Part shown: piece by piece, positions 1,663-8,165 of the stretch
Position numbering within the stretch: position 1 is the stretch's first letter
How the letters are laid out: every line of letters begins with the position of its first letter
Assembly: GCA_002772205.1 (NCBI GenBank)
Contig: PCRZ01000034.1
Location: 3,200-11,693 of the forward strand
Source: Candidatus Jorgensenbacteria bacterium CG23_combo_of_CG06-09_8_20_14_all_54_14
GTDB taxonomy: Bacteria; Patescibacteriota; Minisyncoccia; UBA6257; GWB1-50-10
DNA: 8,494 bases
Direction: 5' to 3'
Notes under the pieces: generated by a model
The model's input: the letters and a program-made list of their open reading frames with translations, nothing else
Database searches by the model: none
Told to the model about the DNA's origin: nothing
Translations under genes and position numbers: made by a program

Positions 1663-1947
1663 ATGGCGCATTTGGTCATTAAGCGTGATGGTACCCAGGA
1701 GCCGTTTGATGTAGGGAAGATCCGGCACGCTATTGAGGCGGCGGCGATGGAAGCGAAACTCTCCGGCGAGCGTGTCGCGGAGTTGGTCCGTGACGTGTCA
1801 GCGGTGGCACTCGAGTGTGCGGGAGGTCGCGACGAGATCTCCACTACGGAACTCCGCGACGCCATTTTGAAAGAGCTTGATGTTGTGGAGCCATTCGCCG
1901 CGGAGGCGTGGCGCCAGCACGACCGCGCGCGGCGCTCCTGGGTGTAG
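1663..1947 (+). CDS. Stand-alone ATP-cone domain protein
   Basis: The 94-residue protein is essentially one ATP-cone (PF03477). It starts with HLVIKRDGTQEPFDVGKI (3-20), the standard first strands, followed by the helical part (IRHAIEAAA, 20-28) and ISTTELRDAILKELD (58-72). ATP-cones bind ATP or dATP and are the allosteric regulators of class I and III ribonucleotide reductases and of the repressor NrdR. Here there is no NrdR zinc ribbon and no reductase domain, so it is free-standing. Its place behind dCMP deaminase and a kinase-like gene fits a dNTP-sensing role, but that is inference. It has its own promoter at 1620-1628; only a weak GAGGGG lies upstream. The last codons (about 1924-1947) overlap the left edge of repeat copy A, so the native C-terminus may have been altered. 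Confidence 0.82.
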   Translation: MAHLVIKRDGTQEPFDVGKIRHAIEAAAMEAKLSGERVAELVRDVSAVALECAGGRDEISTTELRDAILKELDVVEPFAAEAWRQHDRARRSWV

Positions 1948-1964
1948 GCGTGCTTATGGCGTAG
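1932..1964 (+). pseudogene. Remnant of the 3' end of the membrane protein gene, carried at the edge of repeat A
   Basis: In the frame ending with TAG at 1962-1964 this stretch encodes ALLGVGVLMA-stop, the same residues as the C-terminus of the membrane protein at 4039-4701. The nucleotide match to 4669-4701 has only two differences (1934 and 1940), both silent third-codon changes. It lies out of frame with the ATP-cone gene it overlaps. It is therefore a duplicated gene tail, not a working gene. Confidence 0.65.
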
Positions 1965-1970
1965 TACATT

Positions 1971-1994
1971 TGTAGCACCTCTTGTAGCACCTCC
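1971..1994. repeat. 12-bp tandem repeat, 2 units (copy A)
   Basis: TGTAGCACCTCT (1971-1982) is followed by TGTAGCACCTCC (1983-1994). The matching place in copy B has four units. On the minus strand each unit reads GGTGCTACA, resembling the extended -10 sequences of this window. Confidence 0.8.
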
Positions 1995-2005
1995 TATTTT
2001 CCCCA

Positions 2006-2046
2006 TTTTCCCCACTTACAAAGCCATGGCTTTTTATCTGGGGAAA
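2006..2046. repeat. CCATGG-centred palindrome, degenerate (A1)
   Basis: The left arm TTTTCCCCACTTACAAAGCC is complete, but the right arm has drifted (GGCTTTTTATCTGGGGAAA instead of GGCTTTGTAAGTGGGGAAA). The same drifted arm occurs in copy B (4776-4816), so the change preceded the duplication. Confidence 0.75.
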
Positions 2047-2078
2047 CACCTCCTTTCCCTACGGGGAAACACCTCCTC

Positions 2079-2114
2079 TCCCCACTTACAAAGCCATGGC
2101 TTTGTAAGTGGGGA
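2079..2114. repeat. CCATGG-centred perfect palindrome (A2)
   Basis: This is a perfect 36-bp palindrome with left arm TCCCCACTTACAAAGCC meeting its complement at CCATGG (2094-2099). GGGGAAA (2063-2069), CACCTCC (2070-2076) and TCTCCCC (2077-2083) just before it form a competing hairpin with one mismatch. Confidence 0.9.
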
Positions 2115-2191
2115 AATACCTCCTACCGCTTTCTGTTCATCGGATACGGTACCCACGCACCAGTCCGCCTTAGGCGTACGGTGCGGGGTTC

Positions 2192-2209
2192 CCTGCCTGC
2201 GCAGGCAGG
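2192..2209. repeat. Perfect 18-bp GC palindrome (copy A)
   Basis: CCTGCCTGC is followed directly by its complement GCAGGCAGG. It forms the core of a larger structure in which CGGGGTTCC (2184-2192) pairs with CGGAGCCCCG downstream, apart from one mismatch. The same palindrome is at 4963-4980. Confidence 0.8.
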
Positions 2210-2240
2210 CGCTCTACGGAGCCCCGAATGAAAAAGGAGC

Positions 2241-2246
2241 TATAAG
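2241..2246 (+). promoter_or_regulatory. Possible -10 of the DUF378 gene
   Basis: TATAAG (2241-2246) matches the -10 consensus in 5 of 6 positions and lies 30 nt before the ATG at 2277. There is no TGn extension and no clear -35, so support is modest. Confidence 0.35.
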
Positions 2247-2276
2247 TATCATCCCGTGGAGCTTCACTTTCATCGT

Positions 2277-3398: not shown

Positions 3399-3543
3399 AG
3401 GGGAGCGTGTTTTCGCGCAAAATCTGGATTGCCGGGTAGGGCACGGCAGGCGGCGAGCATGCAACCGGCCGAGGCGTTGCGGTATGAGTAGGCGTTAGGT
3501 ATCAGGTGCTGAGCATTAGACTGAGTTGAGGGTTTTTGTTTTG

Positions 3544-3552
3544 TGGTACGAT
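3544..3552 (+). promoter_or_regulatory. Extended -10, first of two promoters with the same core
   Basis: TGG (3544-3546) precedes TACGAT (3547-3552). The 14-nt string TGTGGTACGATAAA (3542-3555) recurs exactly at 3695-3708. A weak TTGAGG lies at 3526-3531, but the spacer of 15 nt is short. Confidence 0.5.
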
Positions 3553-3558
3553 AAACTC

Positions 3559-3636
3559 ATGTGTGTTGTCACGCGAATTACGCCATGGCTGAATTGCGGT
3601 GACATGGCTATAGTTTCGGTTAGATTTAGATTTTGA
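3559..3636 (+). CDS. Possible 25-codon leaderless ORF (low support)
   Basis: ATG 3559 lies 6 nt after the TACGAT hexamer at 3547-3552, the spacing seen at better supported leaderless genes. It opens a 25-residue frame (MCVVTRITPWLNCGDMAIVS, then VRFRF). The product shows no recognisable domain or membrane helix, and the frame runs through the inverted repeat 3567-3604. It may instead be a leader peptide, a short regulatory transcript or nothing. Apart from this frame and the two promoters, 3399-3712 appears non-coding. Confidence 0.2.
   Translation: MCVVTRITPWLNCGDMAIVSVRFRF
3567..3604. repeat. Imperfect 38-bp inverted repeat, CCATGG centre
   Basis: TGTCAC (3567-3572) pairs with GTGACA (3599-3604), AATT with AATT inside, and the centre is GCCATGGC (3582-3589). 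14 of 19 base pairs match. The arms differ from the A-D palindromes, but the centre and overall size are alike. Confidence 0.55.
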
Positions 3637-3670: not shown

Positions 3671-3705
3671 CCGCTCACGTAGTGGCGGAGAAAGTGTGGT
3701 ACGAT
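3671..3705 (+). promoter_or_regulatory. Inverted repeat plus extended -10 of the tRNA-binding protein gene
   Basis: TGG (3697-3699) precedes TACGAT (3700-3705), 7 nt before ATG 3713. Just upstream, CCGCTCAC (3671-3678) and GTGGCGG (3682-3688) form an inverted repeat with one bulge, occupying the -35 side. The link GTGGCGGAGAAAGTGTGGT is close to GTGGGGAAAGTGTGGT at copy C (7496-7511). Confidence 0.6.
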
Positions 3706-3712
3706 AAAACAA

Positions 3713-4038: not shown

Positions 4039-4701
4039 ATGGAAACGTTTGTTACGCAGGCACTCACACTTCTTCCCATTGCGGCACGGTGGGGAATTTT
4101 TGTTCTTGCGGTCTCTACGTATACGGCTCACCACACGGGCTGGCATTTTCCGGCGGTTTCCTACCGCCGCCTCGCCTCCATCCTCGCCGCGTTCTACGGC
4201 GGATACGCCGCGCTCCTCACCATCGGGCAGTACGCGCTTTGGAGCGGCGATTGGTGGGGGCGGCATTTTTTGAACACGCCGCTTGATGTTACGCTCCCCA
4301 TTCCGCTCGTGCACGCCTTCCCCGGGTTTTTCGGTGGCGCTCTCGGGTACTTTCTCTTTTATTCCTGGGGGCGGTTCTGGCTCGGCGCGGTGCTCGCCGT
4401 GGGAGTCGCGCTGCTTTTCTGGTGGTTCCTGCGGGTTTTGAAGCGGCATAACGAACGTTTCTTTGAGGAGAGCGAAACCGAATTGGGATTTCTCGCGGCG
4501 CTCATCGCTGGGTGGCCGCAGGTGCTCATATTTCTCGCCGTCACATTTTTGGCGGTCGTGCTGATTTCCATCGCGCGGATGCTGTTCTTCAAGAAATCAC
4601 TCACCACACTCGGACTCCCGTTCCTCATCGGGGCGTGTGCGGCGCTCGCGTTCGGCGGCGCGCTCGCGGCACTCCTTGGTGTAGGCGTGCTTATGGCGTA
4701 G
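4039..4701 (+). CDS. Polytopic membrane protein of unknown function
   Basis: This 220-residue protein has about six predicted membrane segments: roughly 8-27, 45-66, 88-108, 112-132, 155-180 and 190-217. The loop between segments two and three is rich in Trp and aromatic residues (ALWSGDWWGRHF, 66-77), and the loop after segment four is charged (LKRHNERFFEESETE, 134-148). I recognise no enzyme or transporter motif, so it is a hypothetical integral membrane protein. It starts 2 nt after the stop of the tRNA-binding protein gene and probably depends on that transcript; only GGGG (4019-4022) serves as a distant Shine-Dalgarno candidate. Its last 11 codons form the left edge of repeat B and recur, with only silent changes, at 1932-1964 behind the ATP-cone gene. 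There is no terminator before the repeat. Confidence 0.8.
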   Translation: METFVTQALTLLPIAARWGIFVLAVSTYTAHHTGWHFPAVSYRRLASILAAFYGGYAALLTIGQYALWSGDWWGRHFLNTPLDVTLPIPLVHAFPGFFGGALGYFLFYSWGRFWLGAVLAVGVALLFWWFLRVLKRHNERFFEESETELGFLAALIAGWPQVLIFLAVTFLAVVLISIARMLFFKKSLTTLGLPFLIGACAALAFGGALAALLGVGVLMA

Positions 4702-4707
4702 TACATT

Positions 4708-4755
4708 TGTAGCACCTCTTATAGCACCTCTTGTAGCACCTCTTGTAGCACCTCC
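4708..4755. repeat. 12-bp tandem repeat, 4 units (copy B)
   Basis: Units are TGTAGCACCTCT (4708-4719), TATAGCACCTCT (4720-4731), TGTAGCACCTCT (4732-4743) and TGTAGCACCTCC (4744-4755). Copy A has two units, so the array varies in number. On the minus strand it reads as repeated GGTGCTACAAG or GGTGCTATAAG, like the extended -10 elements of this window. Confidence 0.88.
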
Positions 4756-4775
4756 TATTTCCCCCACTTACAAAG

Positions 4776-4816
4776 TTTTCCCCACTTACAAAGCCATGGC
4801 TTTTTATCTGGGGAAA
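4776..4816. repeat. CCATGG-centred palindrome, degenerate (B1)
   Basis: It has the same intact left arm and drifted right arm as 2006-2046. A further lone half-site, TTTCCCCCACTTACAAAG, precedes it at 4758-4775. Confidence 0.75.
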
Positions 4817-4853
4817 CACCTCCTTTCCCTACGGGGAAACACCTCCTTTCCCC
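4811..4853. repeat. Two hairpins with CACCTCC loops
   Basis: GGGAAA (4811-4816) and TTTCCC (4824-4829) enclose CACCTCC (4817-4823); GGGGAAA (4833-4839) and TTTCCCC (4847-4853) enclose a second CACCTCC (4840-4846). The loop equals the anti-Shine-Dalgarno core of 16S rRNA; on the minus strand it reads GGAGGTG. The second 3' arm is shared with the palindrome 4847-4886, so the two folds exclude each other. Confidence 0.7.
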
Positions 4854-4886
4854 ACTTACAAAGCCATGGCTTTGTAAGTGGGGAAA
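4847..4886. repeat. CCATGG-centred perfect 40-bp palindrome (B2)
   Basis: The left arm TTTCCCCACTTACAAAGCC meets its exact complement at CCATGG (4864-4869). It is the longest perfect member of the family here. Confidence 0.93.
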
Positions 4887-4954
4887 ATACCTCCTACCGA
4901 TTCCTGTTCATCGGGTACGGTACCCACGCACCAGTCCGCCTTAGGCGTACGGTG

Positions 4955-5050
4955 CGGGGTTCCCTGCCTGCGCAGGCAGGCCTGCCTGCCGGTCCCGAGA
5001 CTCTCGATGAGAGTCCCGAGGACTCAAATCGGAGCAGGCAGGGAACCCCG
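4955..5050. repeat. 17-bp perfect inverted repeat with nested hairpins
   Basis: CGGGGTTCCCTGCCTGC (4955-4971) is exactly complementary to GCAGGCAGGGAACCCCG (5034-5050). The 62-nt loop holds GACTCTC/GAGAGTC (4999-5005 and 5009-5015) around GAT. Upstream, CGCACC and GGTGCG enclose CGCC-TTA-GGCG. Downstream, CCACAGG (5063-5069) and CCTGTGG (5076-5082) form another stem. There is no T-run. Confidence 0.75.
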
Positions 5051-5118
5051 AATAGAAAGAAGCCACAGGCATTATCCTGTGGAGCTTCACATTTTAGGAG
5101 AGACAGCGCGTAGCACTG

Positions 5119-5127
5119 TGGTACAAT
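5119..5127 (+). promoter_or_regulatory. Extended -10 promoter of the lamin-tail protein gene
   Basis: TGG (5119-5121) precedes TACAAT (5122-5127), in the same TGTGGTAC context as the promoters at 3544 and 3697. It ends 11 nt before ATG 5139, leaving a leader of about 4-5 nt. No clear -35. Confidence 0.65.
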
Positions 5128-5138
5128 AAAAAATTGTT

Positions 5139-6636: not shown

Positions 6637-6672
6637 TTATGTCCTATTGGACGGCCGTCCAATAGGACATAA
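6637..6672. repeat. Perfect 36-bp palindrome
   Basis: TTATGTCCTATTGGACGG (6637-6654) is followed at once by its exact complement (6655-6672), with no loop. Flanking CCCCCTA (from 6611) and TAGGGGG (6676-6682) could extend the symmetry. It has no T-run on either strand and is unrelated in sequence to the CCATGG palindromes. Confidence 0.92.
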
Positions 6673-6901: not shown

Positions 6902-7458
6902 GAGTATTTGTCGCCATTCCCATTCCCGAGGATTTACAGGGTGAAATCCTCGCGTGGGAGGAAAAATGTCGCGGACTTCCCGTACGTTGGCTCAAGGGAA
7001 AGAATCTACACGTGACCCTTGTCCCTCCGTGGGAGGAGGAAGCGGCACGGGTGCCGGAGGTACTCTCTCGCATGGGTGAGGCGGTGCATATTCTCAAAGA
7101 TTCGCTCACACTTTCTTTCTCGCGCGTGCGGTTCGGGCCTGACCCGCAGCGTCCGCGCCTCATCTGGGCGGAAGGGGAGACGCCGCGGGCGCTTGCGGTG
7201 CTCGCGCGGGAACTTCATGGAAGGTTGGGAATGGCGCCGGAGCAACGTTCGTTCCGGCTCCACCTGACCCTTGCCCGCTTCCGGCCGGAGGATTTTGCAT
7301 CATTCCCGCGGCGCGATTTGGATGAGTGGGTATCGTGGCGCATGGAAGCCAAGGCGGTCGTGCTCATGCAATCACGTCTCCTCCGCGGGGGCGCGGAGTA
7401 CGAGGTGCTGGGGGAGACACCTTTCTCTTCCCGTTTCTCTTCCCGTGGCGGGCGGTAG
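6898..7458 (+). CDS. thpR: RNA 2',3'-cyclic phosphodiesterase (2'-5' RNA ligase family)
   Basis: The 186-residue protein is a 2H phosphoesterase. Its two HxTx signatures are HVTL (38-41) and HLTL (122-125), spaced as usual in LigT/ThpR. The N-terminal MRVFVAIPIPEDLQ (1-14) and WLKGKNLHVTLVPP (31-44) are typical. The known family activity opens RNA 2',3'-cyclic phosphates to 2'-phosphomonoesters, with reversible 2'-5' ligation in vitro; the physiological substrate is uncertain. Start ATG 6898 overlaps the stop of the 41-residue gene by ATGA, and no separate Shine-Dalgarno site is seen, so translation is probably coupled. The last codons and the TAG stop (7456-7458) fall in the left edge of repeat copy C, so the C-terminal SSRGGR may be partly repeat-derived. 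Family identity is secure. Confidence 0.92.
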   Translation: MRVFVAIPIPEDLQGEILAWEEKCRGLPVRWLKGKNLHVTLVPPWEEEAARVPEVLSRMGEAVHILKDSLTLSFSRVRFGPDPQRPRLIWAEGETPRALAVLARELHGRLGMAPEQRSFRLHLTLARFRPEDFASFPRRDLDEWVSWRMEAKAVVLMQSRLLRGGAEYEVLGETPFSSRFSSRGGR

Positions 7459-7504
7459 GAGGTGTTTCCCCAGTTACAAAGCCATGGCTTTGTAAGTGGG
7501 GAAA
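7452..7504. repeat. CCATGG palindrome copy C (inverted relative to A and B)
   Basis: GCGGTAGGAGGTGTTTCCCC (7452-7471) is the reverse complement of the sequence to the right of palindrome A2, apart from one base. The palindrome itself spans 7465-7504 (centre CCATGG 7482-7487), with one mismatched pair (7473/7496). AGGAGGTG (7457-7464) is the CACCTCCT element in opposite orientation. The repeat supplies the stop codon of the upstream ThpR-like gene and leads directly into the next promoter. Confidence 0.88.
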
Positions 7505-7519
7505 GTGTGGTGCTATAAT
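7490..7519 (+). promoter_or_regulatory. Promoter of the PaaX/Cas2-like gene, built into palindrome C
   Basis: TGC (7511-7513) precedes a perfect TATAAT (7514-7519). The palindrome's right arm supplies TTGTAA (7490-7495), 4 of 6 for a -35, with an 18-nt spacer. The start codon GTG 7526 is 6 nt after the hexamer. Because the palindrome covers roughly -22 to -61, a protein bound there could block or recruit polymerase. Confidence 0.75.
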
Positions 7520-7525
7520 AGTTTA

Positions 7526-8104
7526 GTGGCGAAGTTGATAATAAGGAGGAACTCAAGGCCGTATCAAATTCTCAAGCATCTCGCGTGGGGCTCCGGCGTG
7601 CTGCTGGTTTCAATCATTTCACCTTTAGGTGGGGCGCAACTCGTACGAGCGGGGATCAAGTCCTACTTGAGGAAGAAACGTTTTGAGAGGGACAAGTTTC
7701 TCCGCGATCTTAAAAAACTGCAGGAAAGGGATTTAGCGGACTACCGGGAATTGGACGATGGGAGCGTTGAGGTAACCATCACCAAACGTGGAAGGACACA
7801 GATGCTGAAGTACCGGTTGGACGACATGTGCCTGAAGCGGCCGCCGCATTGGGATGGGAAATGGCGCCTCATCGTGTTTGATGTTCCTCATTCCCACAAG
7901 CAGGCGCGTGATGCGCTCCGGCGGAAGCTTTTGGATTTGAGATTTTACCCGCTCCAGAAAAGCGTATTTATCACGCCCTATCCCTGCGAGAAGGAGATTG
8001 ATTTCATCGCATCGGTGTTCGGCGTGGGAAGGTATCTGCTCATTTTGTACGCGACCCACTTTGAGGGAGAGGAGAAACTGAAGCACTACTTTGGTGTGCG
8101 GTAG
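7526..8104 (+). CDS. PaaX-like regulator with Cas2-like domain
   Basis: The 192-residue protein has a basic N-terminal helical region resembling a winged helix (about 8-95, ending in KKLQERDLADY and VEVTITKRGR), then a Cas2-like ferredoxin fold: WRLIVFDVP (113-121), ARDALRRKLLDLRFYPLQKSVFITPYPC (127-154), and YLLILYA (170-176). This is the arrangement of PaaX-family repressors, and CPR members are often labelled Cas2. D119 matches the Cas2 catalytic position, but no CRISPR array or other cas gene is present, so transcription control is more likely. GTG 7526 is chosen over GTG 7496, since the extra residues would lie within palindrome and -10. The GTG is 6 nt after TATAAT, so the mRNA is probably leaderless. 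The palindrome before it is a natural candidate operator; this is inference. Confidence 0.8.
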   Translation: MAKLIIRRNSRPYQILKHLAWGSGVLLVSIISPLGGAQLVRAGIKSYLRKKRFERDKFLRDLKKLQERDLADYRELDDGSVEVTITKRGRTQMLKYRLDDMCLKRPPHWDGKWRLIVFDVPHSHKQARDALRRKLLDLRFYPLQKSVFITPYPCEKEIDFIASVFGVGRYLLILYATHFEGEEKLKHYFGVR

Positions 8105-8125: not shown

Positions 8126-8165
8126 TTTCCCCAGTTACAAAGCCATGGCGTAGTAAGTGGGGAAA
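8126..8165. repeat. CCATGG palindrome copy D (degenerate)
   Basis: The left arm TTTCCCCAGTTACAAAGCC is intact and shares the C-type G at position 8134; the right arm is changed (GGCGTAGTAAGTGGGGAAA). The following TGTGGTGCTGTTGG (8167-8180) looks like the copy C promoter with its -10 destroyed (TGTTGG for TATAAT). It lies between convergent genes. Confidence 0.8.

Follow-up and report, generated by a model that had tools for sequence, protein, structure and literature searches.

Insertion sequences of the IS200/IS605 group are small units of a single gene with a hairpin at each end. The same layout of one gene and end hairpins is given as background in PMC2817692; there, and in PMC3116915, RAYT genes are described as framed by two palindromes (REPs), with cognate copies scattered through intergenic DNA. 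We analyzed a stretch of 8,494 nucleotides (the window, throughout) that holds a locus resembling both kinds of system as described in these sources: like IS200/IS605 it is a small one-gene unit with a hairpin at each end, and like the REP/RAYT systems (TnpA-REP, REPINs) it combines two framing palindromes, scattered cognate copies and several unlike genes in one genome.

There are differences as well. The protein is unrelated to that of IS200/IS605, and the copies here are distinct; the genome carries ten genes of this family, the one in the window included, all of them different from one another and none near-identical to another in an assembly of a kind that may collapse identical copies. 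In place of the HUH tyrosine transposase of the RAYT systems, the family protein has a predicted Cas2-type fold. RAYT repeats are always inverted, whereas the orientation of the pair is not fixed here (among 108 homologues with a matching repeat on both sides, 48 pairs are direct, 39 inverted and 21 equal), and, again unlike REP/RAYT, the upstream copy often contains or adjoins a -10 box. A Pfam scan of 47 family members found no Y1 transposase domain, which together with the unfixed orientation indicates that the protein is not a RAYT. In our reading the system is REP/RAYT-like, with an unrelated protein at its core; palindrome binding, self-repression and spreading would be the putative activities of that protein.

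The bracketed gene and its predicted protein

The gene at 7526..8104 on the plus strand, which encodes a PaaX_M (PF20803) protein, is bracketed by two copies of a 40-bp palindrome: copy C upstream (7465..7504) and copy D downstream (8126..8165), 21 bases 3' of the stop codon. The start codon is uncertain (GTG at 7526, TTG at 7535 or an earlier GTG at 7496). In both bracket copies the left arm has AGTTAC instead of ACTTAC. The dispersed copies in the window are A1 (2007..2046) and B1 (4777..4816), each with two kinds of arm, together with A2 (2077..2116) and B2 (4847..4886), the last a perfect palindrome; a lone half-site (about 4758..4775, plus strand) adjoins B1, and the palindromes themselves are assigned to neither strand. 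As single-stranded DNA the six window copies fold 3.5 to 8.4 standard deviations better than shuffled sequences, indicating that the palindromes are not there by chance. The initial annotation had listed these six copies and the half-site, all of which are real (two of its starts are one base off), but it had missed that D is the partner of C and that the pair brackets the gene.

We searched the genome (509 kb in 47 contigs) with the half-palindrome and, allowing up to three mismatches, obtained 19 matches, compared with none for the reversed control. These matches make up eleven palindromes plus the lone half-site, with six palindromes in the window, two on contig C45, two on C8 and one on C27; the palindrome is thus dispersed through the genome, as had been supposed from the window. 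The two C45 copies lie between the 3' ends of two convergent genes, which we take from their sequence to be pheT and recG. Within the window the copies form no regular array, and the window holds no tRNA and no Rfam match at gathering thresholds. A copy of a different palindrome family (3568..3603, no strand assigned) matches the repeats beside a paralogue, G000:C29:10117.

Other repeated sequences lie nearby. The A and B copies sit inside a duplicated segment of about 350-430 bp (window 1924-2270 and 4661-5093) that also contains another repeat, CCTGCCTGCGCAGGCAGG, and the 3'-terminal part of the gene upstream. Beside palindrome B, on the minus strand at 4707-4754, are tandem 12-bp units, GAGGTGCTAYAA, similar to the -10 region that follows palindrome C. 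A perfect 36-bp palindrome at 6637-6672 (TTATGTCC..GGACATAA, with a CGGCCG centre) is similar to the bracket palindromes of another gene subfamily.

Nine bases past palindrome C is a TATAAT box (7514..7519, plus strand), the predicted -10 element of the bracketed gene on the strength of its sequence and of a tendency across the family. The order of palindrome, TATAAT and gene given in the initial annotation is confirmed. At D, which it had described as the same layout with the -10 destroyed, the stretch that corresponds to the -10 region of C reads GTGCTGTTGG.

The encoded protein is predicted to join a Cas2-type fold to a winged helix, with weak matches behind the prediction of the latter. 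PaaX and Cas2 are its top structural matches, E. coli PaaX being the best of them, and a VapD protein is also among them. Its likeness to the PaaX repressor extends to the PaaX_M domain, which is present in 47 of 47 family members scanned. It differs from PaaX in length (192 residues, where the chain of E. coli PaaX has 305), in not reaching the cut-off of the PaaX equivalog TIGR02277 (21.2 bits for the window protein, cut-off 264.55), in an invariant aspartate (143 of 143 homologues examined) whose position is Ser in the mycobacterial relative 3kfw (a weak alignment, E 0.18), and in its setting, a scan of 12 window proteins having turned up no phenylacetate genes. With Cas2 and VapD the family shares a predicted ferredoxin-like fold and the motifs FD[IV]P and QKSV, but it adds an N-terminal domain and palindromes of its own, and no Cas1 match was found among the same 12 proteins. 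Pfam Cas2 gives the window protein 22.4-22.5 bits, under the cut-off of 23.8, and reaches E 0.001 or better in 20 of 47 family members (scored by E-value and not by cut-off), and PADLOC Cas2 matches are weak. An H-hydrophobic-H motif, as expected of the HUH site of Y1 transposases, occurs in just 9 of 143 homologues. NCBI names relatives of the protein PaaX or, in some cases, CRISPR-associated endonuclease Cas2; the three closest protein relatives with an organism name are from Candidatus Jorgensenbacteria, and homologues are present in 34 of 59 relatives. We found no published description of this system, and no paper that brings together Cas2 and PaaX, or REPs and the candidate phyla radiation, in a search short of preprints and most subscription journals.

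Bracketing by gene-specific repeats across the family

A matching repeat is found on both sides of 108 of 139 homologues, compared with 14 of 562 control ORFs (the ORF calls, here, in the strict tests and in the placement of loose copies below, are mechanical and some are spurious) and with none of the 139 homologues in a mirrored control; the remaining 31 have no flanking match. This test pools two sets of homologues, with 4 dropped, and asks for a shared repeat, whether or not it is a palindrome. When strict palindromes are required on both sides, 44 of 66 homologues in the first set pass, compared with 1 of the 161 other ORFs of these stretches; deliberately mispaired flanks match in 16 of 600 draws. 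From the second set, 22 of 74 homologues and none of the 410 controls pass under this requirement; many of the 52 that fail have imperfect palindromes. The second set derives from the best 80 of 194 named loci in a collection with one genome per species (76 from groups of the candidate phyla radiation and 4 named just 'bacterium'), less three loci already in the first set (G004, G011 and G044) and 3 homologues near contig ends.

Unlike genes of the family carry unlike repeats. A repeat score of at least 14 is reached by 0.3% of the 1735 pairs of homologues with 30-40% protein identity and by 85% of the 47 pairs with at least 70%; this low sharing between unlike genes indicates that the copies at one gene stay alike and that the repeats of different genes diverge. 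Loci L041 and L080 carry two related genes next to one and the same flanking gene, but the two point in opposite directions, as they would after an in-place inversion of the unit.

The position of the upstream repeat relative to the promoter also recurs. A TATAAT-like box stands near the end of the upstream repeat in 64 of the 108 bracketed cases, against 17.9 expected for random places in the same loci; in the 18 Nomurabacteria-type loci inspected, the box usually overlaps the upstream repeat, and the downstream copy is an inverted repeat of the upstream one in about half. The initial annotation had proposed a portable operator/promoter cassette, and with boxes placed in this way the operator/promoter idea fits at the gene, where the layout of palindrome, -10 and gene is found again and again; it does not extend to the loose copies, which lie off promoters (see below). 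Strings like TGTGGTACGATAAA at 3542-3555, 3695-3708 and 5117-5130 of the window, two of them shortly upstream of genes, have the look of an extended -10 promoter in common use here.

Gene neighbourhoods and loose copies

Close homologues occur in unrelated neighbourhoods. Among 97 pairs of homologues with at least 70% protein identity, a flanking gene is shared in 26 and none is shared in 71. We chose 18 of these 71 pairs for DNA alignment, and in all 18 the main match covers the gene and reaches no further than 132 bp upstream of the start and 46 bp downstream of the stop. In 5 pairs (all Nomurabacteria, all including L196) the match runs from about -33 to about +42 with both palindromes inside; in the remaining 13 its end falls somewhere from 21 bp upstream to 5 bp downstream of the stop, short of the downstream palindrome. 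In four of the 18 pairs both members come from the same genome (L174/L177, L185/L208, L190/L188 and L178/L191), with DNA identities of 75-87%. The earlier suggestion of a unit spread through the genome is not supported for a promoter cassette; what recurs, in unrelated neighbourhoods of other genomes, is the gene, sometimes with its palindromes. Changes of gene order in these genomes also have other causes, and several of the genes hold the same place across genera, indicating that movement of the gene is not frequent.

One interval, between genes that we take from their sequence to be fba and prfA, allows presence and absence to be compared. It was measurable in 17 of 19 stretches: 3 contain a bracketed gene (996-1537 bp, two of which, in G010 and G004, hold other DNA too), 10 have only 19-210 bp, and 4 have other inserts. 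Within a single genus, G010 has the gene in this interval and G042 does not. G045 (locus L239) has a single palindrome in this interval, centred on CGACCG, at the place that a bracketed gene takes in other genomes. This comparison yielded no exact junction, and empty-site comparison within genera was mostly uninformative because the species are too diverged in DNA. No target-site duplication was seen by eye at the sites inspected, and the viral contigs scanned gave no relative (32 stretches matched a pattern, none of which was confirmed).

At least three family genes in this genome have a palindrome family of their own, each with 11-12 sites when bracket copies are counted. The first is the 40-bp palindrome (11 sites). 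The second, CCTCAA-N8-CATATG-N8-TTGAGG, brackets the gene at C29:1169 and has 12 sites including the bracket pair, one site adjoining a run of N; the third, GTCACCGCAATTCAGCCATGG, lies beside the gene at C29:10117 and has 11 sites, two of them behind the gene. A short palindrome, GGTGCTATAATTAATTATAGCACC or similar, accompanies second-family copies at L261 (about 230-258) and L265 (about 2110-2140), and at L265 an assembly gap (N) starts within the GGTGCTATAATTAATTATAGCACC-like palindrome.

Palindrome type and gene subfamily co-occur. Across the taxonomic family we surveyed 35 genomes, counting the present one, and found the second-family pattern in 12, the corresponding gene subfamily (at E 1e-20) in 12 and both in 8. 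At least two copies of the pattern (0-1 mismatch) are present in 8 of the 12 genomes with the gene subfamily and in none of the 23 without it (Fisher p = 2e-5). Four genomes have the gene and no pattern match (G003, G008, G022 and G049); the palindromes that bracket the gene there differ from the pattern in spacing, centre or outer arm. In G042 there is a single copy but no gene at E 1e-20; G001, G018 and G021 have matches with two mismatches only, and no gene; G043 has eight copies, of a type unlike the bracket of its own gene. In the five genomes suited to a test of similarity within the genome (G002, G013 and G043 were left out, having no clean bracket pair under the pattern), 14 of 24 loose copies resemble their own genome's bracket copies most, 6 are tied and 4 point the other way, and a count of 14 is reached in 2 of 120 reassignments, the true one among them.

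The placement of the loose copies was examined for 28 copies of the three families in this genome (27 loose copies plus D, with one loose copy, C25, left out). Tandem genes flank ten of them, convergent genes 7 and divergent genes 2, while 3 lie inside called ORFs and 6 are unclassed; a called start codon is within 100 bp of 6 of the 28. In G004, 5 of 5 loose copies of its version fall between ORFs, when ORFs of 100 codons or more are counted. The consistent placement at promoters that the initial annotation expected therefore does not hold for loose copies, and a regulon with operators at promoters is not supported by the 28 copies placed.

These positions, off promoters and in 7 cases between convergent genes, bear directly on the best of the competing accounts, in which the protein is a PaaX-like repressor only, with operators at its own promoter and behind the gene (perhaps for looping) and with the loose copies as its regulon. 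Such a repressor would explain the PaaX_M domain, the structural match to PaaX, the TATAAT-like boxes beside so many upstream copies and the ten distinct genes of this genome, which are what plain regulators would be; the paired downstream copy, on the other hand, would be unexpected for an ordinary autorepressor, and the unrelated neighbourhoods of close homologues also count against it. We consider this account a serious but rather unlikely alternative.

Candidate mechanisms and spread in the phylum

Because most related genes are bracketed by a repeat pair of their own, the protein is likely to bind its palindrome and may spread it. The reading we prefer is that the protein encoded between C and D probably does bind the palindrome, probably represses its own promoter through the upstream copy and may spread copies, working much as REP/RAYT systems do. 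The winged helix would bind the palindrome, and since the upstream copy covers the -35 region the gene would repress itself. The Cas2 fold would cut or copy palindrome DNA: Cas2 proteins use the conserved aspartate, and the presence of the same residue here suggests a nuclease. Further copies may spread through the genome. The likeness to REP/RAYT systems lies in distinct genes, each framed by its own repeat, and loose copies that are mostly intergenic.

A more specific proposal, which we advance tentatively, is that Patescibacteria have a mobile palindromic element powered, without Cas1, by a Cas2-fold protein, which would cut or recombine its own palindromes at their centre, so that the gene moves rarely and bare palindromes often. 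This genome has palindromes whose two arms differ as well as symmetric ones of either kind (arms such as ACTTACAAAGCC and AGATAAAAAGCC), and there are similar mixtures of arms in the second family and in G019; mixed-arm palindromes beside symmetric ones, in this genome and in G019, are as an exchange of half-sites at the centre would give. In quasi-palindrome repair one arm is corrected by the other, and as such arm-by-arm correction gives the same mixture we do not accept half-site exchange as proof of recombination.

The upstream copy often stands before or across the -10 box, which places it outside the message and makes it improbable that the protein is a Cas2-fold RNase cutting hairpin RNA from palindromes that flank its own message, as a self-limiting or toxin-like unit. 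Cas2 and VapD are indeed among the structural matches and the copies form strong hairpins (with DNA parameters), but in the stretches read there is no family gene between loose copies. That the palindromes are ordinary terminators or generic intergenic repeats, near these genes by chance, would account for their good folding and mostly intergenic positions; their sequence is specific to each gene, and control ORFs of the same loci are rarely bracketed in any of the three comparisons above, so that this explanation is very improbable. Least probable of all is an origin in CRISPR adaptation, the system being a relic in which Cas2 acts on sites that resemble repeats, to which the NCBI names of some relatives, the weak PADLOC matches and the Pfam Cas2 matches of family members point, but which sits poorly with window copies that form no regular array, repeats that are unlike between genes and a scan of 12 window proteins among which Cas1 does not appear.

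To return to the preferred reading of a protein that binds and may spread its palindrome, the repeats supply a predicted binding site for each gene, so that what this large family of unknown function does can be tested directly. If the protein does spread palindromes, REP-like systems would have originated on two or more occasions from proteins that are not related, and DNA mobility without Cas1 would be a new role for the Cas2 fold. Patescibacteria genomes are very small, yet the PaaX_M domain (presence alone, whatever the bracketing) occurs in 90 of 286 sampled genomes of the phylum, compared with 2 of 14 control genomes, and a single sampled genome of the phylum may have as many as eleven PaaX_M matches.
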